The position numbers and the translations under genes are program-made. A model generated the notes under the pieces. That model was not told the origin of the DNA and ran no database searches. It was given only the letters and a program-made list of their open reading frames with translations. Source: Angiostrongylus vasorum (taxonomy: Eukaryota > Nematoda > Chromadorea > Rhabditida > Metastrongylidae). From it: 64,000 nucleotides of DNA. The stretch's first letter is position 1. Each line of letters starts with the position of its first letter. The DNA lies in NCBI GenBank assembly GCA_018806985.1, contig JADANN010000018.1, positions 2,078,501 through 2,142,500 on the forward strand, written 5' to 3'. This document shows positions 2,048 to 60,400 of the stretch, piece after piece.

Positions 2048-4101
2048 ATGGCATTGAATTTGATTTCCTGCTATGAAAGCGACGTGGAAAGCTGTGGCTC
2101 TGACCAGGTCGGAAGCTGTGCTTCTCCCTCGAATGGGTCTGATCATGCACTGGAGGACGACTTTCTGAAGTGTTTGGGAACAGAGGTGACCACGGTATGT
2201 TCATGAAGACATTCATTCATTGGGACTCTCACCCGGTGTCCTTAATAATCTCACTATTCATATGCCCTTTAAGTATTGGCGTTTTAAAACCTTGGGATAA
2301 AGAGGATATCGGCTATGTTTTTAGACCAATAGCAAACATCGTTAACGTTGAATGGTTGAAGTGTTTCAGAAGGCTTCGTTTCTGTTCGGAAGCGACGAAG
2401 GAACTAGTAGTGACGACGATCAGGCAGATAAAACCAAAGACATTTCTACTCCTAAACCGACGTCAGGTTAGCCTCTACCAAAAACCTGTTTTCTAAATTG
2501 GAACCGATGTTTTGCTTTGTGATGTTGTCGAAAAAGGGCGCGTGTGGCGCAGTGGTCGGAGGCGTCCTGCAATACACTTGGGATCAATTCCCGCACCCCT
2601 GGCCCACCAAGCCTTTAATCCCTCCGGGGTTGGTAAATTGGTACCAGGCTTGTCTGGGAGGATAGCTGCTCTGGCTCGATACGTCGGTAGGCCACGACGA
2701 GTCATTGTAAAGACCATATATGCATTCAATAACCTCCAACGATGCAGTCGAATGCATGGCACATCCCTCAGAGATTGATCAACGCCGAGAGCTTCGTTTT
2801 AAATGTTGTCGAACGCCTCTAAATTAGTCACAGACGTAAACATCTGGAATTGCTCTATATTTTTTTGTCTGGTAGATTTAGGTATATCGCATCGTCTTCC
2901 AAGTGCCGGCTCTGTTCTAAAGGGAACGCCTTTGGTGAGAATATACCGTTTGTATTCGCCGTTATAGCCTGTTGTTCTTGATAACTTCACTGAGTAGTAC
3001 TCTATACTGAGTAGTAATCCGTAACGTAATCTGGTGTCTTACAGTTTCTGTTAGTCGCATCCATTGCAGAGTTCAAGCGTGTTTTCAAGTGAGCGTGAAC
3101 GGGAAAACCATGCACAAGTTCTCACATTAAGCCAACATGTGCCTTTAACTGAAAAGACTGGAACGAGGAAAAGGCCTTTATGTCGGTGAGGCTTTTTTCT
3201 GCTATCAATATCAGCCGCTTTTCTTCATTAACCTGTTCTTTTTTAAAAGCATGTGAAATTCGCATATTCGATGAAGATCACTAGATTTTTCCAAAACATC
3301 GATGACGTTGAGCACTTTAAAGATTTTTAAGTGTACTTTGATTGAGGAATTTTTATTTAAGTTGGTTTGTCCATGTTGCCATTTCTTTTCCCATAGATTT
3401 TGCTCACTTACTTACTTGTATGCTTGCATGGCCTATCATCACTGGTTGTGTGGCCCCAGCATAATTGCAGTTCTCCGAAAATTTGCTGATTTAGCCATTA
3501 TGGTTCGCTAGAGCCCCGAGATCAGCTTAGCTGAAGCCTTCGTCTTGTCATTATCACCCCAGGCAGTCGCGGCTGTTGTATATCAGTGCGAGATTTGCCA
3601 CCATGCAACTAGTTTAATACAAAGACGGTGGTGATTCCTGGTACTAGTATTGGTTTACTCTTAGCTGGATTCCCAGTTGCAAACGTCGGACTCAGCTTGG
3701 GAGGCCGTGCTGGGGAATGAATCCCTCGCCGTGCATCACATCACCCATGACCACCTCCCAGCCACGATGAGACAGTAGGCTGTTGTAAGGATTTTGGTTA
3801 CTATTTCCTTAAAAAACAGGAAGAAAGAGAATCACATTCGCAAAAAAGCTGAGCTATGCTAAACTTCAGTGTTGCTTTTTATGCTGAGGGGCCACACAAC
3901 CAGTGCTGATCGTGGGGAATTTATTTTCTGTTTTACTACTTATTCAGAGCCTTCACTCGTGGCAAATGCAGACGTGGTGATAGATGTCATTTTGAACATC
4001 CAGTCGTTTCCATCCTACCAAAAGACGCTGCTGTTATTGCCGGTGCACCAAGAATGTACGACGCCCACGATGTTTTTGCTAAGAAACCAAAAACTGCTTA
4101 G
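2048..4101 (+). CDS. CCCH-type zinc-finger protein (five exons, 188 aa)
   Basis: Predicted exons are 2048-2194, 2370-2466, 2882-2934, 3070-3185 and 3948-4101, with stop TAG at 4099-4101. All junctions are GT..AG and the phases are consistent (0, 1, 0, 2). Residues 1-95 are acidic and Ser-rich (ISCYESDVES, DEGTSSDDD) and look disordered. Residues 137-155 form a CCCH finger: C137-x7-C145-x5-C151-x3-H155. The first Cys is in exon 4 and the other ligands are in exon 5, so the finger exists only after correct splicing, which supports the model. CCCH fingers of this spacing usually bind RNA, so an RNA-related nuclear or cytoplasmic role is inferred. Intron 2 holds a SINE-1 copy and intron 4 holds an R4 copy. 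The start is the first ATG after an in-frame TAA; coding-like sequence upstream makes the true 5' end uncertain. Orthologue not identified. Confidence 0.75.
2536..2800 (+). repeat. SINE-1, tRNA-derived, near full length
   Basis: The head looks like a tRNA gene: box A TGGCGCAGTGG at about 2545 and box B GGATCAATTCC at 2581-2591, the spacing expected for an RNA polymerase III promoter. The body and the end 'GATTGATCAACGCCGAGAGC' plus a short T-run are shared with copies at 5228, 29562 and 62595. The head resembles tRNA-Arg (GTGGCGCA.TGG). It lies in intron 2 of the CCCH gene. Confidence 0.8.
3395..3800 (+). repeat. R4 dispersed repeat
   Basis: This is a plus-strand R4 copy inside intron 4 of the CCCH gene. 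It starts near a TTACTTACTTG stretch and contains the conserved 'TCACTGGTTGTGTGG' block of the end hairpin. It aligns along its whole length with the copies at 6075 and 1440. Confidence 0.7.
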
Positions 4102-4254
4102 ATTTAAAAAATGTTTAAGACGAAAACTGTTGTAATGTTTTGCGGAACAGAGAATTTGCCAGGTTGAGCGATTGCTGGCAAGTGAATGTAAGTATTGCAA
4201 CACTTATTAATAATACGTGTTATATAATAGGCAGATCAGAACAGTCAGACCACA

Positions 4255-4490
4255 CTTAGCACACTGGTTTGAGGTGATATATTACATGCACAAGGTCATT
4301 TGTTCGGTTCTACGTTCCGGGTTAAACCATCCCTCCGGAAGGTGATACCACAGTTATCCGGAAGAATGAAAGCCCGGAATTGATAAATCACCAGGCTCCG
4401 ACTAGTTGCATGGAGCAACTTTGCAGTCAATCACTTGGTGGTCCATAATGGAATCGAATGCATTGTGTGTCCCTAAGGATAAATCAAAGA
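4255..4490 (+). repeat. SINE-1, decayed copy (body and tail)
   Basis: The sequence follows the body and tail of SINE-1 (CCATCCCTCCGG..., then a GAATCGAATGCAT block close to the 3' end). The tRNA-like head is worn beyond recognition. Confidence 0.55.
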
Positions 4491-7269: not shown

Positions 7270-7480
7270 TTTTGATTCCAGTGCGATTAAAACCTTGTTC
7301 TGTTGGCTTTTCCATTGAGGTTACGAAGGTGTTTGGCTGAGTAGGTTGCAATTAACTTGACCTTTCAGTCTTTCAAGAAGGCGAAATCCGCGGAAACGTC
7401 GGCTACTGTTAACAAGTAGTATAATGTGGTATTAACCTCCTGTTTGGTCATCAATAAAACGTTGGATTACTATTAATCAA
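7270..7480 (+). mobile_element. Penelope-like element, solo 3' end
   Basis: The segment matches the 3' ends of the Penelope-like copies at 10276, 16110 and 17400: a GTTTGGCTGAGTAG block, then 'AAGAAGGCGAAA', then 'GAAACGTCGGCTACTG'. No reverse-transcriptase or GIY-YIG coding remains, so it is a very short 5'-truncated insertion. Confidence 0.6.
7366..7405 (+). ncRNA. Decayed hammerhead ribozyme motif
   Basis: This lies in the position of the hammerhead core within the Penelope-like 3' end. The GAAA box and the ACGUC that follows are intact and the stem II GCG/CGC can form, but the CUGANGA box has mutated. It is probably inactive. It is listed to document the series of copies. Confidence 0.4.
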
Positions 7481-37109: not shown

Positions 37110-37878
37110 TAGTTTCTATTTCCCATATTAGCGTACTCTTCTTATATTAACTGTTTACTTGTAATTATCCTACATCTATCCTTACACCTTCCGTAAATTG
37201 TCTCTTAGCGACCATCCCACGCACCTGCGTCATAGTTGGCCGGAAAGGGGGTTCTATAATTTCTTTCTATAGATCACTCATTTTTTGTCCGACAGTATGG
37301 GCCCTGAATGAGCAGCTGTCAGCCGCACGTTCTTTCCGGTATCTGCCCTTCCAAGCAATTTTTGTATAAGCCACTGTATCGCTGCCACAAGTACTTTCTG
37401 TACAAGTTATTGTACGCTCATCACGAACCTTCTGTGCAAGTGCAAGTAGCTCTGTCAGATTGCAATAGTTGAAGAAGTTTTAAAACTTCTCTCTGAGCAT
37501 TGTCTTGAGTTCCTTCACCCCATCCATTACAGGAATATGAGGAGCATTACTAGTCATCAAGCCAATGTGCAAACCTCAGTGTCCTGGTCTTCCAGTCAAA
37601 GTGTTCCAGTGTTTTGCCCAGCTTCGCTCAAGTGTTTCACTTATCCCTCCAATTCAGCTCGTGCCCGTTCGCTCAACTAATCATCGTTAGATTGTTTATA
37701 TTCCATTGTTGTTATTGCCATAAGCAATTATACCCCAAGCTTGAGACTGTTCTCTGTGCCTACATCAAAAAGTCCTGGGTGGAATACTCGTAGAGAGTCG
37801 AGCACTCTACTTCGAATTAATAATTACTCTATGCCGAAAAGTGAACCGTAGCCCTATGATCCACTGCGCCAACTAATA
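37110..37878. other. Unclassified insertion inside the RTE LINE
   Basis: Together with 36956-36973 this forms an insertion of about 0.8 kb that separates two halves of the RT gene which join cleanly without it. No terminal repeats or recognised proteins are visible. A minus-strand frame at about 37500-37400 (ELLALAQKVRDERTITC) is coding-like, so it may be a piece of a host gene or of another transposon. Confidence 0.5.
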
Positions 37879-39357
37879 CAGCAGGCTTTTGATTCAAATG
37901 ATATAGAAGCAGTGATGAAAGCCCTGTACAGCCAAGGAGTCTCTCATCATATAAAGATTTTTTTCGTCAACTGTATAAAAATTTCGCAACCAAGATATTA
38001 CCATTCTACAACGATATTAACATCGATGTCAGAAGAGGGGTTAGGCAAGACAACACCATCTCGCCAAAATTATTTACCACCACCCCCGAAAACGCCATGC
38101 ATGCATTGGAATTGGATAATATGGAAGTAAAAATCAATGGCTGGCAATTACACCACCTTCGCTTTGCTAATGACATCGTCCTTACAACACCAAACATTAG
38201 CCAAGCGGAACGAATGCTGACCGACTTTGATAAAATCCTGTGCAAAGAATGGTCTTCGATTAAATCTCACAAAAACGATGTTGATAAGGAGCGGATTGAC
38301 TAGTTTCACATGTCCAGTTCACGTTCAACGGAACGAATATCTCCGAATGCTCCAGTTACGTCCGCCTACCATGGAAAATCAACATGATGAACGACATAGC
38401 TCCAGAGTTAAGCAGAAGGAAACGAGCGGCTTGGGAAGCTTTGAAGAGCATCGAGGATGTAGTGAAGAGAACAAAGAACACCCGAGTCCGTGCCCACCTT
38501 TTCGACTCAACCGTACTTCCTGCCCTAACGTATGCATCAGAAACCTGGTCACTGCGTAAGCAGCATGAAAGATCACTCAGCGTTATTGAACGCGCAGTCG
38601 AAAGGACGATGCTGGGAGTATCCTGTTCTACATAAGTAAGGGAAGGGATCCAAAGCTCCGACCTGCGTCAACGATCAAAAATCAAAGATGTCGTTCTATA
38701 CGCCAAACAGTCGAAGATAAGGTGGGCAGGACACTTAATGCGTATGAATGACAACCGATGGACAAGAGCCGTTAGTGACTGGATTCTTCGGGATGTTAAA
38801 CGCACTGCAGGAAGACCACCGACTCGATGGTCGGAGTTCTTCACAAAAAGCCTAGAAAAAAGATATGATGCTCGACGAGTCCCTAGAACGAGCAGAACCC
38901 ACTGGGCTACTGTTGCACGCAACAGGGAAAAATGGAAGATTTACTGGCGCCCGCTCGAGTCACTCGACGACCAACGGGACTACAGGTGATACAGGTGACG
39001 GTAACTGTATGAGCAACAACCTGAGTTTATTATGACGACCAAGATTATTTATGATAAATCACGATTGTACTAGGTTCTTTCTCAACACAGGAATCTCCCA
39101 AGCGAGAGTAGTATATTGAAGGTCATAAACAGCGAAGGTTTCGCTTAAACGATGCCACTGTTGCTCTATAGAATTCTCCATGAGGTTGAATTATCAACTC
39201 TTTTAGACAAGATTTTTTCTTCTTTGGCTGGAGCTGCACGCACCGTAGTCACTAATCAACTTTCGTACAATCTTGGCAACCTGCATGCTGAAGAACTTGC
39301 CACCTGTTCATAAACGCCTTTCGACGCACCTTTAAATAAGAAATTGAGGTTACAGAT

Positions 39358-42341: not shown

Positions 42342-45300
42342 TTAAAACTTGTATTTCAGTGGTCGAATCCTAAGGAACTCTTCCAGCATCTCATCCGTGA
42401 CCTTCTGTCGCCGCTCTTTCATTTCCACAACCACCTTCGTAATTTCATCAATAGCAATCTTTTTCAGTTCCCCTGTCAACATCGCACCGGCTGTGTATTG
42501 CTGGAATGTAGGAACGTAAACATCGTATTGTTACAAGATTGACTGCTCATCTTTCCAATCATTCAATATTGTGTGCAAATCCATATTTTATTTATTTTCC
42601 TATCGTATAGTGTCCATGGATCTCCCTCATATGAAGGATCTCGAGCCGGTTGGTCCCGAGGCTATGTGGCGCGTCCCCAGATGGCGGATAAGGGGTTAAT
42701 CGCGGACCAAAAGCGACCTTTGCTTTCCTGAGACGCAGGTGGATCCAGAGGATGGACTCCCTGTTTCTGCTGCGCCGATTTGGCACATACTTTCTGCATT
42801 TACGGGGCGTATTCATGCACGCGTGTGTGGGTGCGTTCTGGTTTATGCAGATTGTATTCTACGAGTCAATTCGGCCAAAAGCCTGCAATCACGTGACAGG
42901 GAAGTATATTGGAGGCGGTTAGGAGTCGCTTCCAACAAATAAGCTCCATGTCCACTCTGGTAGAGCCTGGCAACCTACCCGTGAGTATACCCAGCCCCCC
43001 ACGTTCAGAACCCAGCAAGCTACACATGGGTATCAAAATGCTAAACACAGTTAAAAAAAAACGGGCCTCATTCCGGTGACCCCGAAAGCGCCCCCCAATT
43101 TCGCAGGGTTGGGTAGGACGAGTACGGAGAGGCTGCTAAAATCTCAGGGGGTAATGCAGGCTGCCTGGATTACAAAGAACTATGGTGACGATCTGCACAT
43201 AGAATGCACGTGAGCTTGCATCCGAGTCCTCGATAGAAGACTTGCTCATGAGAGCAAGAAGGATAAGACACGACGTCATCGGCCTGGCCGAGACGAGACG
43301 ACGTCACCCATTCAACGCCGTCTATGACACCGGAGAAGAACAGTTCCTCGGAACATGCGACAGTAGAGGGAGCCGGGGGGCGTCGGCGTTCTCGTCAACA
43401 CGAGTTTGTCCATGAACATCGATTCATTCGAACAGCTTGCAACCCGAATCGGACGTTTATGATTAAAAAGAAGTGGATCTATACCGGATTTGACAATCTT
43501 CGTCGCTTACGCGCCGACCTCAAACTATAACGAAGAAGAAGTCGAAGCGTTCTACATGGACTTGAAGAAATTCTACAGAGAAGACCATACATTCTTCCAC
43601 GTCATCATTGGAGATTTCAACGCCAAGACTGGACCAAGAAGAACGTCTGAAGAACGTCACGCTGGGAACCACGGATTGGAATGGAACGAACAGAGTGAGC
43701 GGCTATCTGATTTAATCATGGCGACCAAAACCATCCATGGTAACTCGCAATTCCAGAAGCCCCACCCTCAACGCTGGACGTGGGAGTCTCCCAATGGAGA
43801 GTACAATAACGAGATAGACTACATCATTGTAAATAGAAGGTTCTGCCTAACTGATGTCGCTGTTGTCCCAAAATTCTACATGGGATCAGACCACCGTCTC
43901 CTTCGTGCAAGATTCTATTTCTCGCGGAAAGGAGAAAAAGCCGATAAATTAAAAACCGAAGTCCCAGAACCACCGTAAACTGACACTTGTTCAATTCATT
44001 AGTCGGCTGTTGGGAAGATGCCGTTGTCGATGACATCAGCGAAGAATACGATCTGCTCATTCAACATCTTCACCTTAGCACTACGAAAGTTGAGAGCTCG
44101 AAACTCACCAAGAGACGTACGCCAGCGTGGAATCGCACGAGCTGCAGGCAACCGCGAACTAACGTCCGAGCTTGCAAAACCTATGCAGACAGGCGATAAA
44201 AGAAGATCTTAAAGAGAGAAGAGCAGCAGCAATGGTCGAAGCTGCAGAGGCTGGGAAAAACATTTGCAGAGCATACCGAAGCTTCGCCAATTACAGGACC
44301 AAGACGATTGCACTCCGACCCCCAGACGGAACAGTTGCAGCGCCCAGAAAGGCAATGGAGAAAGTCATCCACGAATACTACTCAGTTCTCTTCGATAGCC
44401 ACGTCCACCTTCCGTCATAAGAAATAAAGGAGGATGGATATGTTGTGTCACCGGTTCTAGCTTCCGAAATCCGACATGCCATTTCGTCGATGAAAAAATC
44501 GAGCAGCACCAGGTCCGGACAGGGAAAAGATCAGAACACCTGAAAAAACCTTCCGCAAGTCCTCGTAAACACACTGGCTCAGCTCTTCTCACGTTATCTG
44601 TCTGAATGCAAGATCCCTATTCAGTGGAAAGCCAGCAAGACCGTGTTATTGTTCAAGAAGGGTGATCTACAGGATATCGGCAACTATCGTCCAATCTGCT
44701 TACTGTCTGTCGTCTACAAGCTTTTCACTCGAGTCATCCTAAACAGGATTGGCAGAGCACTGAACGAAGGACAGCCATTTGAGCAAGCATGGTTTCGAAA
44801 AGGATTTAGTACGATGGATCACATCCACCCGATAACAAGGCTCATTGAAGTATCGCCAAAGTACAGTAGACCGCTCTGTATCACTGTCATCGATTTACAG
44901 AAGGCCTTTGATTCAACTGAGATAGAAGCAGTCATGGGAGCCCTTGATAGTCAAGGAGTCCCTACCCAGTACATAAGGATTCTTCGTGAGCTTTACAAAA
45001 ATTTCACAACCAAGATACCACCATTCCACAACGATATCAACATTGACGTCAAAAGAGGAGTTAGGCAAGGCGATACCATCTCGCCCAAATTATTTACCGT
45101 CACCCTCCAGAACGTCATACGAACACTGGAATGAGATAATATGGGGAGTGAAAATCGATGGTCGGCAGTTACATCATCTTCGCTTTGCTGATGACATCGT
45201 CTTTATAACAGCAAACATTAGCCAAGCGGAACGTATGCTGGCCGACTTTGATAAATCCTGTGCAAAGATTGGTCTTCAAGTAAGTCTCACAAAAACGATG

Positions 45301-48300
45301 TTCATGAAGACCGGATTGGTTTCGTATGCCCCATTCACGCTCAACGGAACGAATATCTCCGAATGCTCAAGTAATGTCTATCCAAGTCGAGAAATCAATT
45401 TGATGAACGACTTAGCTCCAGAGCTGAGCAGATGGAAACGAGTGGCTTGGGGAGCTTTCAAGAGTATCGAGGATGTAGCGAACAGAACAAAGAACATTCG
45501 ACTCCATGCCCACCTTTTCGACTCAACGGTACTTCCTGCCTTAACGTATGCGTCAGAAACCTGGTCGCTGCGTAAGCAGGATGAAAGGTCACTCAGCGTT
45601 ATTGAACGCGCAGTCGAAAGGACGATGCTAGGATTATCCGGTTTCACACAACGAAGGGATGGGATCCGAAGCTCCGACCTGCGTCAACAATCAAAAATGA
45701 AAGATGCCGTTCTGTACGCCAAACAGTCTACGATAAGGTGGGCCGGACACGTAATGCGTATGAATGAAGACCACGGACCCGATGGTCAGAGTTTTTTCAT
45801 GAAGCGCCTAGAAGAAAGAAATGATGCTCGACGAATCCCTAGAGCGAGCAGTACCCACTGGGCTACTCTTGCACGCGACAGGGAAAAATGGATGATTTAC
45901 TGGCGCCCGCTCGAGTCACTCAATGATCAGCGGGACTACAGGTGATACAGGTGATCGTGTAGTGTGGGCCAGCTAAGTGTACAGCTAAAGTGTTCAGAAG
46001 CGTTCCAATTTACCAATAAATTTAATTTTCCATTGTTAGCACTAGTCCTAGATTCCATATTTCAATCAATAAGACAATTTGCCTGCTGGAATGAATGCAA
46101 AAGAAGAATCACTTCTAAAAGCATCATGGTGTGGTCTTCAAATGTTGAGAATCCTTGCATGTGTCCAAAAATTAGCTACCAAATTAATCTCGGCATTGGT
46201 TAATATGTTCTGGAGTCAATAATAGATTGTTAATGGTGTACCGCCTTACTATGGTTGGTGAGTTGGCCGTTGGTGGAGTGGGGGGATCGAACGGCAATGC
46301 AAGCGGTGGGTCGTCTTCTAGCAGAGTTTTCCAAGCCCAGGAAGTGCTTGATGTGTTTATCAGAAAGCCAAGAGAAGGTCAAACCAATGATAAGAATCGC
46401 CGTCTTCTTGGCAGTAACTTAGCCGTTAGCAGTATAGAGTTATTCTTTAAGTTATTTTAATTCAAAACGAGTGCTAAATCCGTGGCAACTCACTTTATCA
46501 ACAACGCATTTGATACGAACGTACAGCGCAGTTTCAGTGTTTTATAAGGGAGACTAGCGTTTTTTAAGATAGGTACCGTATTGGTCGGTGATCATAAGTT
46601 GATAGCGATCAACTGAGAGCAATCACTGAACGGGATCTTTTTACAGCTACACCGAGAACCTGCCGAAAAAACTCGATGTCGACCACTCTACAGTGGTTAC
46701 GTCTTTGACGTAAACCACAAACGTGAAAAAAGCTCGATAAGGGGGATGAGTTATGAGCTGACTGAAACTCAAAAAAGTTATCATTTTAAAGTCTGCTCTT
46801 CGCTTTTTTTTATGCAACAAAAACTACTGATTTCTCGATAGCGTTGTGATGTGCGATAAAAAATGGATTCAATACCACAATGGAAAGTGCACAGAGGCTA
46901 CACTGAGATGAATATGCTAAATATTGCCCAAAGTCCAGTTTAGATAAGAAGGCTATGCTTACTCTTTAATGGCTTGTCTATGGAAGTGCTCAATGGGAAA
47001 AAAAAATCCTATCCTTTCGTACGACAACAATCGACAACACGTTAAATAAATAAAGGTGCAAAAGTTGAACAAGCCTTATCAACTCTTGATTACCCACCAC
47101 ACTCGACAGACACCTCGTCAACCGACATTTTTTCAAGCACCCCGGTAATTATTTCTAAGGAAAATTCTTCACAACAAAAAAAAAGCTCCTTTTTGAAGAA
47201 CATGTCAATTCCAGACGTTCATAATTGTATTCATAATTCTGGGGGGAAAAAATGAAAAATAAATTTCGACTTATAATAGACTACGTTGTACACATCCCTC
47301 GTTTCCGTCACCACTTCTTAAGGAACAAAGCAGAAACCACATGGGTGAGTAATGTATCTTATGGCCTAGAAATTAACCTGGGACATGAGGGTATAGCACG
47401 AAGCGACTACTCTCGGAAAGGACAATAGAGCGATTCGTTTACGCTCACCATAGGCACCTGCGGTCCAGGAGTTTTGCAAATATCTCAGCATCACTAAAGT
47501 TATATTTCGCAACGCATAACCTGCCGCTAAAAGAAAACAAAAGAGTAGGCAGTAAATAATAAGTCAAAATTCTAACCAATATATTTCAGTTGAACATGTT
47601 CAATCTAAAGGAGCTGTTCCCTCCTAGTTCACAGTTAAGTTTTCTTCCTTTTATCAGGGGAAGTGGGCGAACGATGGGTGTTCTACTATCCCTTCAAAAC
47701 ACACGCTCTGAACTATTCATTGAGAACATGAAAACGCTTCGGCGAGTGAGATCCATTTTAACACGATCATTCCCAAGCTTCTAGGGAGATGGATTGCTTC
47801 AGAATTTTTTTGACCTGGTACTTCTGATGAAAATAGAATAACGCTCTCAAAACGATACATAAAACATACTTGTCGAATCTCTTCTAGGCGTTCATCACTA
47901 TCGAGAAAATAACGAAGAAACTGATAACTGATGTCTACATCACAATTTCCTCCATGTAAGCGATGCTCTTCAATTGAAGCCTGACCACCAGAAAATGCAT
48001 ATTTGTTGATCTAAAAAGACTTTTTCACACACTCACCAATAATTTCGCTCATGGAGCATTAACGACTACAATAATTAGCCATTGTGTAATGAAATTCACT
48101 TATAGAATGGACCATAATTTTCTTAACAATTTTAAGAAGTAAGAAGTGAGCCGAACCTTGTTTTTAATCTGCTTCGGGGTATCAGAAAGATAAATACATG
48201 TCGTTGAATCGCTGGCCGCCATTTTTGTTTGTGCCCCCTAAAGTAGTGGAGCACTAAGAGTCAGGGACCAAGAGCAAAACATATAAACATTCCTTGAAAT

Positions 48301-51300
48301 GAAATTCACCTGTAAGGCCGGAATGAATGATGAATAGATTAAGCAAGGCTTCGGAAATTTAAGACGTGGTGCTACGTCTCGAGTCATACGAAAGTATGGA
48401 TCCTAAAGAATTTAAATCTACCACAGTGATGGTGAGATAACTGCAAAACTCTGGACTGCAGATCTCTGCGGCGAGAATCGAAGATGCTATTACCCTTTCC
48501 AGGAGCTAACGCGTTCACCACCACACCATGCGAGTCTTTAGTTTCGCTTTTTCTTTCAGTTAGTTTCTATCTACCTATTTAAATCTACATTACCCGAAGA
48601 TGTTCTTCTCACTTGTTAAAGAAGGTGGCTAATTTAAGATGTCAACAATTCTGCGACAACATTTGAAGAATGAATAGCAATTAACAATACATAATGAATA
48701 CGAAGCTCTCAGAAAGACGAAGACGTTGAAATGCTAGCCGAATAGATTCTTGGCAAGCACTTTGTGTTGGCTTGTCAATAAAATAAAGCACATTGATTAT
48801 TCGTACCGAGGTTAAATGAAAGCCAGTTTACAACAGTACACTTGAATAACCTTGTATCTCATCAGTTAGCGCAGTACAAGTAATGTACTGAATGCAATAG
48901 ACAAAATCTATGACGTACTTGATCAACAGCACATGGAATGAGACAGGGTATGTCCGCCTTGTTTCCAAAAATATGAGGAAACGATGACGAAAAGCAGGGT
49001 GCTGCTTCAATTGCTGGGAATGCAGCCTAAAACGAATAGTAATAAATATGGAATAATCATGGAGGAAAACTAGACTTTGCATAACACGAGAAAAGCACTA
49101 AGACCGTAACGAACACGGGAGCAGTCGCATTTAACAGTACTTTTATTGGAAAACCTTACAAAAAAAATGAACTTTTTTAGCAGAGACCTCCATAAAAATC
49201 CAGCTATCAATGACAGTTTTAAAAAATAAAAAATAACCCTGGAAATTAAATACACATCTGAAGCTTACCTTCCCCATACTGTCGTCAGATGTAAATCCGA
49301 ATATTGCTCTCGCTTGATTTCCCGTCACGAGTTTCCAAATTTTACAAATATTTTCGTAGAATGGAGGACTGTAAGTAAAACAATACAACGTACTAAAACA
49401 CATCGTAAATTTAGCCACACTATACAATGAAGAGAAAAAATTTTAAATGTAATTAATTACTTGACTAGACTAGAGGGCGCGCAACGCAGTGATAGTCATG
49501 CTGTTCATCACGAGCACAATGCCGATTCGTCGTCGCCCTGGAGCAACTAAGCTTCTCATCCTTCTGGGATCGGAAAGTTGGTATCAGAATTGTCTCGGTC
49601 CACCCTACTCCATGAATCCATAGAGGAACGCTCTAGCACAGCTACGCCGGAGCTCGAGCGAAAAGATCAGCATTCAACGATTCAAAGACCCTCGTGGATG
49701 ATGGATGCGACAGTGCTGCGATCCGCACAGATGTAACGATGGGTCATGTGAAAAACAAAAAAACTACTTAACTCTGATTGAGTTATGCACTGGAACATCA
49801 ACAGTTAGTACTTTTATTTTTCTCGTCGAAGCCTAGCAGAAGCGTATTGATGGATGCAAAGAGTTCATTCCTCTAGCACTGTTTGAGAGGTACACTTTTA
49901 TTTCCATTTCTAAAACATTTAAAAGTGAAAGCCAAGAAACCTAGTCAGATGAGAGGGACCCTTCCCTTGATCCACAGGGACAAACAACAACAAAGTAGAA
50001 ATCAAGAATGAAAACTCGAAGATCCAAATGAAGAAAACAGATAAATCAACTATTAATAAACGTAGTTTAAGACACTGAAGACTGAGAGCTCACTTCTACC
50101 ACACCAAGCGATAGGACAACCGATAAAAGGCGAACAAACCATAGGATAATTTTGAATTTTTTTTCTACTCGCTATGTGTTATCTATCAAAATACCGACTG
50201 CTGAGGGGTGGATTATCCATTGAAAAAAAAGAATATTAATAGACAAGGATCTTCGGCTCTGATGAAGACGAAGCCGTCGAAACGTTAGCCGAATAAACAT
50301 CTCTACCAATCTCGTGTAAGCTCAACAATATAAACACATGTTGATTAAACCACAGGATAATTAGAAAGGCCCGCTTTCCATTAGCTACAACTTCAGTCAA
50401 CTTAGCGTAAGGAATCTCCTATTTGAACTGACGCAAACCTCTGTGTTCACAATCTCTTGTCATCCCATCCTAGGGCAGCCGTGTTAGTGCGTTCCCATGT
50501 GGACTGGAGGAAGCGATTTTCATCACACAGCCGCCGGGATTGCGGATTGAACAGTGATATGACTGCAGACGAGTCCGGCACCAATTTCTACATTCCCGAG
50601 GTAGTACGACTAACCATGCACGTGGTCTAACCGCCATCTTGAGCGTGTTGAACGGCATTGATACCACTAAGCTATCTACGTCGCTTCTTAACCTTTTCGC
50701 GATGCCATCCATTTTTGCGTGGTGGGCCAGGTGGACTGCGTGTCATCAGAGCGCATTTGAGATGCGCATTGAAATCAAAATATACGGTCGGAAACTTATA
50801 GCAGTGTATATGTTGGAAACAATGAGCATGCTCGTGGAAGGGTAAAGATATATAGAACGTTAAATAAGCCAGATCAATGCAGTTTGTGCACAACGTAGCA
50901 TAGAATGCTTCAAATCGGACATCCATTAAGCTAGAATACTCTCTTCTGACGCAAACTGTCATGATATTTTAAAGGCCGCAAAGAAGAGGTCATAACTGTT
51001 ACTTGCTTTTCAACAAATTACAGCCGATGAAGGCGTAGTGGATGTTTTCGATGGTCAGTTGAAGGAAGACATCAGCTACAAGTCCTTCCATAAGCCACTT
51101 GTAAATGTCCTTCAATACAGTGCCGAATAAGCCCGTTATTCAATAATTAGGAAGTTCGGAATGCATCTCTACCACCATCAGGGAGACAATGGAACAGCGA
51201 AAAGCAGGCCAGATCGATGAAAATTAAAAGTGGATCAAAAAAAGAACTGTCAAAGAACTGCTGTTGGCCTTTTTTATAAACATAAAGTCCCATGTTTAGT

Positions 51301-53798
51301 CTACCTGAACAAAGACAAGCTTCTCCCCACTTCTCGTTATACGGTGTGAATAATGAAGAAAGTTTTTCAACTTTCTACAATCGTTATGACAACACATCCG
51401 CAAAAAGTAAAAGATTTCAGATCAGTGAAGGACGCCGCTCGGAGTTACCTGTTCAGGAACAACGATCGAAAGGATTTCAATAGTTACTTTTCGCAGAGGA
51501 CGAATAAGTGAAATACCATACCTAGAGTAACAAAAGTTCATCAGGAGTACCACATTGTCTAATCCATGAAAAACCGTTCAAGAGCTACTAGAAATTGTCG
51601 ACGATGGATTGAGTAGTATCTTTACTAAGACTAGCCTTTCCATCAACTCATCCTCGAATGACGTGTCTGACGGCGCGACACCATGCCGTCAAGGCTTTTC
51701 ACCCGCGTAATGCAATGTCACGCAGTTTGATTAGTAAGAGAAGAACATTCCTAATGATAGAAAATTCAAATAAACCTTCACCTTCTCAATGATATGATCA
51801 CACTTTTGAGTACTACTGATGCAGATACCATGCTGCAGGATATCCGTGCAGAGAAAAGGATAGCATTGATCGGAAGAATACCCCCGTTCAAGGAATAATC
51901 ATGATACGATGCAATCCAAGTCCAAATTCAACTATTTTTTTAGTTACAAAGACTACCTCGAACGTGTACCTTGAGCACCCGACGAACATGGAAAATAGCT
52001 TGAGGAGTAACTGTACAACAGAATAAGAGCACAGCCGTGTGCAGGCCCTTCAAAAAGCCACAGATCAAGCAACGGATCTAAAACTCCGTTGGATCATCTC
52101 CTCAACTAGACTAAGAACATTACAAACCATCCACATAGTGAATAAACGACGTATTTTGAAATATCATAAGCAAATACATCAAACGAAATATATTCGGTAA
52201 CGACCCTCAAAAATTTCTTTAAGTCCAAGAGAATCTGCGACGAAAACGAAGCAAATAGACCGGTGATGTGATGAGGGAGAAGTAATGACAAGTTGGTCGA
52301 AAAGTGCAGTAAATTGGATTTCAGAAGGAAACAAGCATCCCCTATAGCGACCCCTATCTACATGATCGGCATAAGTGCTTCAGGCCGATGAGTATCAGAT
52401 GTACATACAGCTGGAAATGATTTATGGATCATCGGTAACCCATCCAAGTACTGAAGTGGAACGCTCAAACTTACCACATATAGTCGAAATCGTTGAACAT
52501 AAACGTTTTTTCAGGGTCGAAACCGACTGCTATTATATCCTTCATGTTATCACGAGCCATGTTCTTAACTTCAGTTACCGTGATATCCTTCCATAAAAAC
52601 TTTTCATCATCCGTTATCTGAAAAAACAACACCCCATGCAGATCAAAAACACCATCAGTTTTTTAAAACTAAGAAAATCCGAACAGATTGTAAAACTATT
52701 CAGGTGGAGACAACCTCATGAACTTTGAATGGTGTAAAATATTTATGTCTTGTCCATTTACACAACGATTGTTTTGCTACTTAACAAAACTTATCTATGG
52801 AGTCCCAAAAAAAACCCTGCAACCCTTCGTACATATTTCTTTCCCCATAAATGTTGGATGTGATGCACACTTTATAAAATCTAAGAATGCAATCTCGTCA
52901 CTTTTAATTTACACTAATTAACACTGCTGCGAGAAAAGCGAAAAGAAGGATTCGCATGGTGTGACGGCGAACCCGTTAGCCTCCGGAAAGGGTAATAGGG
53001 TGTTCGGTCTCCACCGCAGACACCAGCGGTCCGGAGTTTTGCAAATATCTCAGCATCATTGTGGTTCTAAGAATACAGTTTGCAAAAACAACAACCTGAA
53101 TAATAAGTGGCACATCGAAAACATCCTGTAACCACTTCGTGAAAATAAATGGAACAAGATGCCCAAGATGGAGACTTCCCGAAGATGGTCCGCGACCGGT
53201 ATATAAGAAAAATGGTTTCCCTTGTTCTTTACGATCCAAAATCACATTAAAATCTCTGAAACGAGGTAATATTGCTCTTTAGAACTCTAACTACAAATTT
53301 AGTAGGCAATTATGATGTGAACGGCCAAGAAGCACTAACATATGAACTGTGATCTGTCAAAAGTAGTCTTTTAAACTGACCTATGGGCGAAAAACAAGCC
53401 TCGACGAAGCATTGGGTGAGGTTCCTGACCTGTGACCTTTCTGAAGCGCTCAACCAGATCTGACTCTAGTTTGTGACAACCGAACTTGGCTAAAATGAAT
53501 TTCTATACCAACAAATGTTCCCGTCCACTTCAACCCGTCATAGGCAATCATTCAGCAGTTTGTTTGATACAATACACCACTCGATTCAACTCCTAGGCTG
53601 TAAATTAATGTCGCACCTATTAGCTTATCGTAATCGACGCCAGCTGCACTTGATGCAGACACATCCCAAGGTGTTACCAGGTCCTCATTTTCGTCCTCCT
53701 TCTAGAACCAGAACTAGATCAGTGAGAAAACGACGTAGGGTGAAGGAAATAAAAAGCAGACGTACATGATCACCGTTCGTGAGCTTTGTTTCCAACAT
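42342..53798 (-). CDS. wars-1: Cytosolic tryptophan--tRNA ligase (11 exons, 403 aa)
   Basis: The enzyme charges tRNA-Trp with tryptophan in the cytosol. Exons on the minus strand: 53798-53766, 53701-53617, 53489-53381, 53255-53096, 52617-52475, 49368-49269, 49026-48919, 48402-48310, 48237-48157, 48010-47870, 42500-42342. All are GT..AG, all phases fit, and the sum is 404 codons including TAA. Key features: '[20 protein letters not shown]' at about 89-108 with the class I HLGH signature at 105-108; [11 protein letters not shown] at 130-140; [20 protein letters not shown] at about 240-259; and the second signature KMAAS at 282-286, usually KMSAS. There is no N-terminal WHEP domain; the protein starts [20 protein letters not shown] acceptor (exon from 53826) lies 28 nt before the ATG and could take a spliced leader. 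The last intron (5.4 kb) and intron 5 (3.1 kb) are full of transposons. Confidence 0.95.
42640..45957 (+). mobile_element. Nearly full-length RTE-clade LINE
   Basis: The element is about 3.3 kb, antisense within the last intron of the tRNA ligase gene. A GC-rich 5' region (42640-43200) is followed by an apurinic-type endonuclease ([11 protein letters not shown] at about 43605, then [24 protein letters not shown]). Next is the reverse transcriptase: [48 protein letters not shown] at about 45182. The C-terminal domain ([24 protein letters not shown]) ends at 45945. The 3' tail GGTGATACAGGTGAT is the short repeat typical of RTE elements. One-base shifts (one near 45130 just before FADD) and a few stops disable it, but it is clearly younger than the copies at 13120 and 51780. 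Confidence 0.9.
45960..47385. other. Intron sequence; one Gly/Ser-rich open frame
   Basis: This lies within the last intron of the tRNA ligase gene. A plus-strand frame at 46248-46460 ([20 protein letters not shown], then [13 protein letters not shown]) looks coding-like but has no motif or splice partners. Confidence 0.3.
47388..47515 (+). repeat. SINE-2, tRNA-derived copy
   Basis: It contains CTCACCATAGGCACCTGCGG, then TTTGCAAATATCTCAGCATC. The box A region is worn. It lies in the last intron of the tRNA ligase gene. Confidence 0.6.
48425..48545 (-). repeat. SINE-2, inverted copy
   Basis: On the minus strand: CGCATGGTGTGGTGGTGAAC, GCGTTAGCTCCTGG, then CAGTTATCTCACCATCACTG. It sits in the short intron between the exons at 49026-48919 and 48402-48310. 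Confidence 0.7.
48695..48790 (+). mobile_element. Hammerhead-bearing element fragment
   Basis: GAAGCTCTCAGAAAGACGAAG, then GACGTTGAAATGCTAGCCG, resembles the 50251 ribozyme with several core changes. The downstream AATAAAGCACATTGA matches the ends of the foldback element at 11640-11790. Confidence 0.45.
49475..49745 (+). repeat. SINE-1, decayed copy
   Basis: GGCGCGCAACGCAGTGATAG is a worn box A head. The body with TTCTGGGATCGG and TGGTATCAGAATTGTCTCGG follows SINE-1. Confidence 0.5.
50251..50292 (+). ncRNA. Hammerhead ribozyme, minimal type, all key elements intact
   Basis: Order along the strand: stem I 5' side TTCGGCT (50251-50257); core CTGATGA (50258-50264); one unpaired A; stem II GACG (50266-50269), loop AAGC, CGTC (50274-50277); GAAA (50278-50281); GUU cleavage triplet (50283-50285); stem I 3' side AGCCGAA (50286-50292). 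Stem I is a perfect 7-bp helix. The bases ACGU (50281-50284) are self-complementary, so stem III can form only weakly within one molecule but well between two. This is the minimal, possibly dimeric design reported for hammerheads of Penelope-like elements. The flanking tail matches the arms of the foldback at 11264. Confidence 0.85.
50465..50645 (+). repeat. SINE-3, tRNA-like copy
   Basis: GGGCAGCCGTGTTAGTGCG is followed by GATTGCGGATTGAAC and GACGAGTCCGGC. It is related to the copy at 54950. Third tRNA-like family, in intron 5 of the tRNA ligase gene. Confidence 0.5.
51780..52095 (+). mobile_element. Decayed RTE-clade LINE fragment
   Basis: Frames recall the region after the RT active site: [27 protein letters not shown]-like, then [17 protein letters not shown]. 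The subfamily is the one at 13120 rather than 42640. Only about 300 bp is recognisable; sequence from 51280 may also belong to it. Confidence 0.5.
52950..53072 (+). repeat. SINE-2, tRNA-derived copy
   Basis: TTCGCATGGTGTGACGGCG (box A region), then CCTCCGGAAAGGGTAATAGG and CACCGCAGACACCAGCGG, ending TTTGCAAATATCTCAGCATC. It inserted only 25 bp from the donor of exon 53255-53096 of the tRNA ligase gene. Confidence 0.75.
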
Positions 53799-57483: not shown

Positions 57484-60400
57484 ATGGAAAGCGGTCACTA
57501 CACATATCCAGCTGGTGCAATCTTCGACGAACTATCTTGGATGCCTATGCCACCAACCTATTATGCCTACCCAATGTCAGCAAGTGGACAAACTGGGTTA
57601 GTTAGTCTACACAACTAGAAGCACTTAACTGATATTCCGATTGGCAAGTTAAGAAAATAGGAAGAATTTTAGATATCCAGTGGCTATGCAACACGCATTA
57701 CCGTATCCTAGCATGGCGAACTGGTGTAGTTATAACGCAAATGGTGGGTGCAGTAACCATAAACCGTATGTCTAGACGCAAATTCTTCCTTCTTCAAGAA
57801 CAAGCTTACAGAAAAACACCCTAGAACTATTGCACTAATTTTATGCAGTAATGGTCAATTGGAAAACTAGATGTCTTTACTGAACGTATTATTTCCAATC
57901 CTGGTAGGACAGTATGTGACAGTGTCATATAAGATCATGATATCCAGATATGCCACCCTCGACGAAGTACAAGAAAAAACGGAATTTGTTTACGAAGCTA
58001 CAGCTCAGTATGCTGCAGAGAAGGTATGCAGACTTAACAGTTTATGCCAACGCTATACCAATCTAAACATCCAAAATTTCTTCTAATAAAGAAGTCCTGT
58101 TAATGGAGAAAGTGAACTAACACACATATGGCAGATTCGCTGAGAAGGAGCACATAAGACAACCTGAGCGGGACAACTTCGCCCAAATGATTGGCCTTAC
58201 TGGAGAACAAGTGACGTGGATTTGATTTTCAGTTCCTTTGATTTCACTTAAAAAATTAGGTTGCTTTTACAAATTATATCAATCAAATCATTCGCTGTTT
58301 TCTTTATGAGCAAACATGAGACTGTTACTTTATTCCATATTCAGAAAAAAAGCTGATGTTCCTGAAGATTTCGCCCTCTCCAAGGCCTGAAAAGATCAAA
58401 TTGACTGCAATCTAGTCAGCCTAACACCTCCAGAACCAAAAAAGAAAAATCACGAAACGAAACTTTAAACAGCGTTGAAAACAAAGCAGCTTCTTTGAAC
58501 GTTCACCGCTTTTATGATTCTTCCACTGAAATTTCAAGTGGAGTTCAACCTTACAACGCTCACTTGGATGAGTAATGTGCCTCTTTAATATTAAAATATC
58601 GGTCTCGAATACTACGTGAGTTTACGTGTGATAACGAGACATACATTCCTGTGGTTCATTTTTTTGACTCTTGAAATTTACCCAGAATGTTGTTTTCTAC
58701 ATAGAATTCGAGTTTTGCGCGCTCTTTCAGATTTGAGTATGAGAGTGGTAACTTCTACTTCAAAATCTTCTCCGTTATATCTCTGTGTCTCATACGCTCC
58801 AAGATAGTATTTGGCTTAACTTTAAGTTTGCCGACTAGTTGTTCTTTAACACGAATGCACAGCTGTCTATCCGTTTTGCCAGTGTAATCATCCCCGCACG
58901 ATTTACAACAGATTGGGTACACCGTACACGAAATAATGCAATCACCGTCTCTCCATTGCTAGGGCATACTATGCAATTCCGCGTTGTACACGGAAGACAG
59001 TACATGCGGTTACAATGATTATCAATCATTGTTACCGAATTCTCTCTAGCGGACATTTTTAAGTAACGTTTTACAGCCGCACTTATTTCATTGCAAACAA
59101 ATTGCAAGACAAACGGGACTTTATTCAAGCTGTTTCGAACAGTGGGTACACAGAAAAACAGCAGAGAAAAAACCCCTGAAATTGACGAGGCGAATAGCGA
59201 TTCCAGTGGCTACGAAACTCGAGATGGCTGTATAGGAAAAACCACTCCTAAAAACCATAATTTTGGCGAGAATAAAGTCCCTTTTATCTTACCCTTTCTT
59301 TCCAATGAAATAGGTGTAGCTATAAAACGTTGCTTATAAGGCCCGCTAAAGAGAATTCGGTGAAAGTGATTGGAATACCCCCGAACACTCATATGCAAGC
59401 TAGTTCGTAACTTCCTGCACGACTCTCTATGTACAAAGTAAAATTGCACAATATGCCCTAACTAATGGTGACGGTGATTGCAGGAGTCAGGGTATGGTTA
59501 ATCTGATCTCTTGTAAACATTGCCGGGTCGAATAGACTGGCAAAAAGATATGCCACTGCAAGTCCCTATGAAAGAATACATAATCGGTAAACTTAAACTA
59601 AGTACTTCACTTGGCGCGCACAGGACACCGAGACATAAAGAATATGGAAGAGAGAGAAGGGGCTGAGTGTACGAGAAAGCTTTTTTTTCAATGCGACTGG
59701 AATCTAGGTTTCATGTTGTTCCTCTATGGAGGTATTTAGACGAGTGGATCGCAGTTAACTTGATCTTTCCATGATCTAAAGAAGGCCAAATCCGCAAAAC
59801 CGTCGGCTCTTTCGTGAATACAGAATGAACTAAAACCTCGTGTTTACTCATCGGGAAAACAGTGAATTATATTACATTATTGATTTATGCCCAGGTTAAC
59901 ATAAAGTCGGCCTTAGAAATTAAATAAATGTAATCTAATAGAGATAGCTAGGTATCCCTTATGTCAGACGTCTAACGTGGTTCATCAACCATCAAAATCA
60001 ATAAGACACGATTAGACCATAAGACAGAATCGGATTTATTTGCTATATTCACGGTCTTTAAGCACTACATCACTATAAATGCTTCAAAAGTGCAAGCTAA
60101 TAGTTGACATTTCGTGTTATTCACAAAGTTCTCACTACCAGATTTCGTTATCTACACACAAACTGAAAGAAAAACAAAAAAATCCTCGTGAGAAAATAGC
60201 AGTGTTCAGGTAAAAATCTGGTTTCAAAATCAACGATATAAGCGAAAACATCGAGAAAGCAGCGTACAAGGACACACCACTGTTACCAGTTCTTCAGGAG
60301 CTAATACCAGCGTCTCTTCCGTGTCTTCATCTTCGCCAACCAACTCACCTGATTCTGCCAACTCCAAACACAATGGGTGAGATTATGACATAAGCGCTCC

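Follow-up and report, generated by a model that had tools for sequence, protein, structure and literature searches.

We found that a hammerhead ribozyme motif of the nematode Angiostrongylus vasorum is one copy of a mobile repeat, which probably is a short non-autonomous, retrozyme-sized retroelement (referred to as WF) that uses the Penelope-like element (PLE) machinery of its genome. The motif was predicted in a 64,000-nucleotide stretch of contig JADANN010000018.1, which is referred to here as the window.

The hammerhead motif and its insert

The original prediction described a complete minimal hammerhead of the PLE kind, and each part that it named (a 7-bp stem I, CTGATGA, a 4-bp stem II, GAAA, ACGT and a GTT cleavage site) is present, at coordinates that shift by no more than 1-2 bases (Table 1). 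The motif contains a CUGANGA and GAAA core as well as an NUH cleavage triplet, and departs from this layout at a single site, the unpaired A 50266, which the earlier list of parts had overlooked. That account also recognized the ribozyme parts but missed that they belong to a repeat insert, and as an interpretation it is partly supported overall.

Table 1. Coordinates of the hammerhead parts, the WF insert and the host intron in the window
Feature	Position	Strand	Basis or remark
Minimal hammerhead, all parts in order	50252-50293	+	sequence inspection
Stem I, 5' strand TTCGGCT	50252-50258	+	pairs with AGCCGAA, 7 bp
Core CTGATGA	50259-50265	+	pattern match
Extra A, unpaired, that separates the core from stem II	50266	+	A in 48/48 WF copies counted
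Stem II, GACG (50267-50270) / CGTC (50275-50278), loop AAGC	50267-50278	+	
GAAA (50279-50282) overlapping self-complementary ACGT (50282-50285)	50279-50285	+	possible dimer stem III
Predicted cleavage site, T 50286 / A 50287	50286/50287	+	position inferred from motif layout
Stem I, 3' strand AGCCGAA	50287-50293	+	7 bp with TTCGGCT
Shortened WF copy, 195 bp	50152-50346	+	direct repeats on either side; aligned to sister copies
Left 16-bp direct repeat AAACCATAGGATAATT	50136-50151	.	read as target-site duplication
Right 16-bp direct repeat AAACCACAGGATAATT	50347-50362	.	1 mismatch
Tail stem-loop TCAACA-ATATAAACACA-TGTTGA	50322-50344	+	
Approximate intron of the tryptophan--tRNA ligase gene that holds the insert	49370-52476	-	estimated from protein matches

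The insert that carries the motif is bounded by AAACCAYAGGATAATT repeats of 16 bp with one mismatch, and its limits were set from the positions of these repeats. Its 5' part, which automatic alignment puts in the wrong place, resembles the CGCTATGTG...ACCGACTGCTG...TTGAAAAA stretches of the longer WF unit, and 14 nt after the TTGAAAAA-like stretch comes GACAAGGATC, followed by the hammerhead. As the corresponding gap in the sister copy L012 is 158 nt, ~144 nt are missing from the window copy, TATAAAAG included. Matches to tryptophan--tRNA ligase (TrpRS) exons were found on the minus strand near 53.2, 52.6-52.5, 49.4-49.3 and 48.0-47.9 kb, bearing out the prediction that the motif lies in a tRNA ligase intron and antisense to the host gene. 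The first of the two exon matches that flank the motif ends at residue 160 of 1ulh and the second resumes a few residues later (the latter alignment is weak and starts at residue 151); because the two are neighbours in the protein, the motif is placed inside a single intron of ~3.1 kb. The window copy looks like an ordinary intron insertion of a shortened element with an intact hammerhead.

A loose core pattern has one match in the window and is also matched in 21 of 100 shuffles, which is not significant; a strict pattern, comprising the core, ACGT, a stem I no shorter than 4 bp and a stem II no shorter than 3 bp, likewise has one match, as compared to none in 300 dinucleotide shuffles. When the genome of the window (280 Mb, 468 contigs) was searched for the core followed by the extra A, a GNCG/CGNC stem II and GAAACGTH, 4,034 matches were obtained, which are copies of a few families and not independent origins, as compared to 11 for the same pattern lacking the extra A and 0 for the reversed pattern. 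The strict-pattern shuffles and the genome counts rule out a chance match. The free pair of stem II is G-C in 70, A-T in 18, G-T in six and unpaired in six of the first 100 places listed, and a 141-nt query around the motif has at least 43 matches in the same genome (40 scored of 2042 first-look candidates).

The original prediction proposed a covariance-model search as its check, with a missing match counting against it, and taken literally this is the outcome. Rfam identifies no hammerhead in the whole window at the gathering score, none at 50001-50600 even up to an E value of 10 and none in one PLE copy, and a WF sister copy scores only 15.6 bits (E 0.56) against the Hammerhead_3 model, whose gathering score is 48.5. 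This failure appears to lie with the models, which are geared to hammerheads that have a closed stem III and lack the extra A. A model built from an alignment of 66 distinct rows from 89 copies, including degenerate ones, recovers 10 places in the window at E <0.001, four of which had gone into building it. In this alignment, 78.6% of the cells in the stems are paired, as compared to 43.0% for the best slid version. Three pairs show many two-sided changes between WF and the PLEs of the genome (T-A/C-G and C-G/A-T in stem I, and A-T/G-C in stem II), while the core and the cleavage site are unchanged between the two families. The stems do vary in ways that preserve pairing, although this variation amounts essentially to a single difference between the WF and PLE families. 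Of five covariation measures, two are not above shuffles (the numbers of pairs with two-sided changes and of further pair types are reached by 373 and 465 of 500 shuffles, respectively), and the relatedness of the copies inflates the other measures.

Within WF, the core is about as variable as its surroundings, with 2.4 changes per core column as compared to 2.5 in other columns (48 of 50 copies, two having been dropped). The whole core is intact in 32, ACGT in 35 and the extra A in all of the 48 copies, and no extra conservation of, or selection on, the core of individual copies was seen among them, so no host role is indicated. WF copies seem to decay freely after insertion, in which case any selection acts on the source elements.

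As the original prediction had anticipated, stem III is too short by itself: because ACGU has no loop, it cannot close in a monomer and could do so only in a dimer, in which it would have 4 bp. The energy model does not favour the dimer (-28.1 as compared to -15.0 per monomer), and in the most stable monomer fold (-15.8) some of the hammerhead core is paired. The folding z values of three natural WF units are -2.99, -1.55 and -3.08. An A at this place is also known from the plus hammerhead of Chrysanthemum chlorotic mottle viroid (CChMVd), in which it moderately lowers the rate in trans; C or G instead of it does great harm, and U increases the rate (PMC3705267). Judged from its sequence, self-cleavage of the WF hammerhead is plausible. 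A rather unlikely reading, in our view, is that the hammerhead-like structure has been kept purely for the PLE protein to land on or initiate from, and cuts no RNA. Such a role would agree with the stem III that is unable to close in a monomer, with the missing Rfam match, with the slowing of the viroid ribozyme by its extra A (PMC3705267), and with findings on an anole PLE, whose hammerhead cut only with protein present and could be changed catalytically without effect on insertion in vitro (PMC11167929). It is opposed by the constancy of the core and cleavage site across the two families, in contrast to their altered stems. PLE hammerheads of a related type that act as dimers are also said to cut, as reported by Lunse et al. 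2017 according to its title.

The WF repeat family

The longer relatives of the window insert are ~375-bp non-coding units that occur solo, in tandem or head to head. Tandem hammerheads are spaced 372-378 bp apart in L012, L022 and L067, with no coding between these units. Among 27 loci (L002-L028), which are the best matches of a hammerhead-region search and not a random sample, 15 have no partner within 1.2 kb, nine are head-to-head, three are tandem and none is tail-to-tail; WF thus includes, in 3 of the 27 loci, non-coding tandem units bounded by hammerheads within the ~150-450 bp range of retrozymes. Since L004 and L028 have one junction in common, at most eight of the head-to-head pairs are independent. 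The inverted pairs had suggested a DNA transposon with terminal inverted repeats, a candidate that was rejected in view of the solo and tandem copies and of pairs whose two arms start at different points of the unit. Of 12 long copies inspected, 11 show the surrounding pattern, and nine of these contain TATAAAAG. Four WF copies, in L002, L014, L020 and L025, start at or a few bases from TATAAAAG, 126-130 nt upstream of the hammerhead, which could be fortuitous or could mark a place where reverse transcription stops or a start related to a promoter.

The 3' ends of WF copies fall into two classes: 34 of 50 are early (tail positions 50-75), 16 are late (position 95 or beyond) and none lies between. 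Three of the 16 late ends are first units of tandems that continue onward, and the late position is approximate, as the compared strings themselves stop there. The early ends map to the loop of the tail stem-loop, to its 3' arm or to the 9 nt that follow. At the other end, 7 of 48 compared copies start 288-314 nt upstream of the hammerhead, close to the tail loop, although this is suggestive only because six of the seven come from 10 loci chosen by an internal region. Direct repeats with a score of at least 9 flank only 8 of 21 solo copies, as compared to 43 of 420 mismatched flank pairs, one of the eight (L059) being the element's own end sequence; at a score of at least 11 the counts are 3 of 21, window included, and 1 of 420. 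Excluded from this duplication test were 16 loci that hold pairs or tandems, as well as a degenerate copy in L024.

Penelope-like elements and the mobility of WF

A GIY-YIG-like frame in one locus of the WF search led to an abundant PLE family in the same genome (150 scored of 14778 first-look candidates). Pfam matches to RVT_1 (at the cut-off) and GIY-YIG were obtained in the longer frames of two PLE copies, and none in the GIY-YIG-like frame seen first (L026). Among the matches listed for the PLE protein, the named relatives are strongylid nematodes, and the best partial matches are in Angiostrongylus, with identities of 72-85% and a query coverage of 14-42%. In 28 of 30 PLE loci, a hammerhead-like pattern follows 266-322 nt downstream of the GIY-YIG match and on its strand, the typical form being CAGGCT CTGAGGA A GGCG..CGCC GAAA CGTC AGCTTG; BLAST revealed one more hammerhead, with one core change (L036), bringing the count to 29 of 30. 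The remaining locus (L030) has no hammerhead downstream of GIY-YIG and only one upstream, on the opposite strand.

The tails that follow the hammerheads of WF and PLEs are homologous, as their local alignment score is 57, compared to 40 for the best of 2000 shuffles. WF therefore has the PLE order of a hammerhead followed by a tail with two classes of end, which in the PLEs are less cleanly split (9 of 27 ends early, 14 late and four between). What WF units lack is any reverse transcriptase and GIY-YIG frame, which the PLEs of the genome do have, and the similarity of one PLE upstream piece to the WF unit outside the hammerhead and tail is not significant. In none of the 68 loci read, nor in the window, does a PLE frame adjoin a WF unit.

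PLE sequences also occur in the window itself. The statement that the motif stands without recognizable Penelope coding sequence holds for its immediate surroundings, but remnants are present elsewhere in the window, at 7-17 kb and 58-60 kb. The alignment-built model places hammerhead-like relics (E <0.001) at 7364, 9317, 10327, 11360, 16169, 17457, 48705, 58346 and 59768, several of which adjoin PLE coding remnants. At 58297-59872, two PLE remnants are arranged head to head, with GIY-YIG-like sequence on both strands and hammerhead relics at both outer ends. In another locus, L010, a head-to-head WF pair is located inside the 3' region of a PLE (2174-4336), whose own hammerhead comes after it, at 4291-4336.

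Alternatively, the ~375-bp unit could be the pseudo-LTR, or its solo remnant, of an unsampled autonomous PLE subfamily, a reading that we regard as possible at a low probability. PLEs are known in tandem with hammerhead-bearing pseudo-LTRs (PMC11167929), and the candidate loci that were read are a small part of the total. It is difficult to reconcile with tandem units that are 372-378 bp apart and have no coding between them, and with PLE frames that carry a different hammerhead and no unit-like sequence in the loci read.

We favour WF as a non-autonomous element that probably depends on PLEs, and infer from these sequence features how the PLE machinery might move it. Points against this reading are the lack of PLE frames joined to WF units in the loci read, the less clean split of the PLE ends, the low number of flanking duplications, the two covariation measures that do not exceed shuffles, the energies that do not favour a dimer and the missing Rfam match. 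A WF transcript, with its hammerhead and 3' tail, would be bound by a PLE protein (reverse transcriptase and GIY-YIG nuclease), which would cut DNA and start copying either within the stem-loop of the tail or at a second, more distal site. In the anole, the PLE protein is able in vitro to cut and extend each of the two DNA strands; copying begins within an AC-rich stem-loop, and genomic copies of that element may or may not have a short tail (PMC11167929). By analogy, the head-to-head pairs, two end classes and tail stem-loop of WF would be the expected outcome of such a mechanism: the proposed cutting and copying start would account for the two 3'-end classes, the frequent 5' truncation and the target-site duplications, and the proposed extension of both cut strands for the head-to-head pairs. 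The hammerhead would release ~375-nt monomers from multi-unit transcripts, probably acting as dimers via ACGU, and ligation of the monomers into circles would be a further step. Tentatively, this sequence-based proposal can be extended to a ~375-nt WF RNA that is freed by dimeric bulged-A hammerheads, circularised and then copied by the PLE protein for roughly one turn, beginning at the tail loop, although we consider this full scheme doubtful. Copying about once round a circle would explain single-unit copies that start and end near the same loop.

Broken RTE-type LINE frames with Exo_endo_phos and RVT_1 matches are present in the window at 37852-38989 and 43463-45945. They raise the alternative that WF is a retrozyme-like element moved by LINEs such as those of the RTE type in this genome, with its PLE likeness inherited and unused. 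Duplications of 9-16 bp would also be compatible with LINE insertion, but this reading has a small probability, as the two 3'-end classes and the common tail fit PLEs, and the listed junctions, inspected by eye, have no common 3' run typical of LINE tails. Retention of the ribozyme for host use in the TrpRS intron is highly improbable: the core is intact in the window copy and its locus has the only 7-bp stem I among 43 strict matches in the fetched loci, but it is one of thousands of copies, shortened and antisense, in a family whose core columns are as variable as the others. The window copy would instead be a single shortened insert of the PLE-dependent element, antisense in the intron, with its hammerhead intact and no sign of host use.

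Relation to known systems

Minimal PLE hammerheads and animal retrozymes are both already known, and minimal type I hammerheads of PLEs were reportedly described by Cervera and de la Pena 2014 and by Lunse et al. 2017. In the literature searched, we found no retrozyme-sized unit with a PLE-type hammerhead and a PLE tail, none in nematodes and no genome-wide extra A, a negative that is weak because both of those reports fall outside its scope. WF is classed as neither retrozyme nor PLE, since it lacks the canonical hammerhead of the former and the frame of the latter; from its sequence, it would work like a retrozyme that is moved by PLEs. Because WF and PLEs share a hammerhead and tail, the questions of what moves retrozymes and what PLE hammerheads do become testable together, and the WF family could thus help to test what moves ribozyme elements. 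PLEs are described as strong candidates for, and not demonstrated movers of, animal retrozymes (PMC7229834), and the in vivo activity and role of PLE hammerheads are termed a mystery (PMC7761336). If true, the circle model would identify the autonomous element behind the mobility of animal retrozymes, and the bulged-A minimal hammerhead would be a natural variant that works and is present in thousands of copies.

The WF hammerhead resembles the minimal type I hammerheads of PLEs, as described in PMC7761336, PMC6155905 and PMC10085705, in its core, its stems I and II, the lack of a proper helix III, its possible action as a dimer and its many copies alongside PLEs. It differs from them in being located in a ~375-bp non-coding unit. 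Its extra A is nearly universal for the stem II type that was searched (4,034 as compared to 11, counted in this genome alone).

Like animal (non-LTR) retrozymes, as described in PMC7229834, WF consists of short non-coding units of a few hundred bp with tandem copies, a hammerhead and duplications of more than 4 bp, in a genome that also contains PLEs. Unlike these retrozymes, whose hammerhead is a canonical type I ribozyme with a closed helix III and loop contacts, WF carries a minimal hammerhead of the PLE type in which ACGT has no loop. Most WF loci are solo or head-to-head. Its TATAAAAG is a further difference, retrozymes being described in a review as seemingly promoterless (PMC7761336).

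The Poseidon/Penelope PLE of Anolis (PAc) is similar to WF in having a hammerhead beside an AC-rich stem-loop and an optional tail that yields two end classes, and its in vitro cutting and extension of both DNA strands is comparable to the head-to-head pairs of WF (PMC11167929). However, WF has no protein, and this mechanism was shown for the anole protein and not for that of this worm (PMC11167929). The plus hammerhead of CChMVd shares with WF the unpaired A, there located between A9 and stem II; it is a viroid ribozyme with loop-loop contacts, and we claim no kinship (PMC3705267). With its nearly universal extra A, WF also supplies natural examples, in large number, of a core variant for which the literature searched offers only this viroid as another case (PMC3705267).
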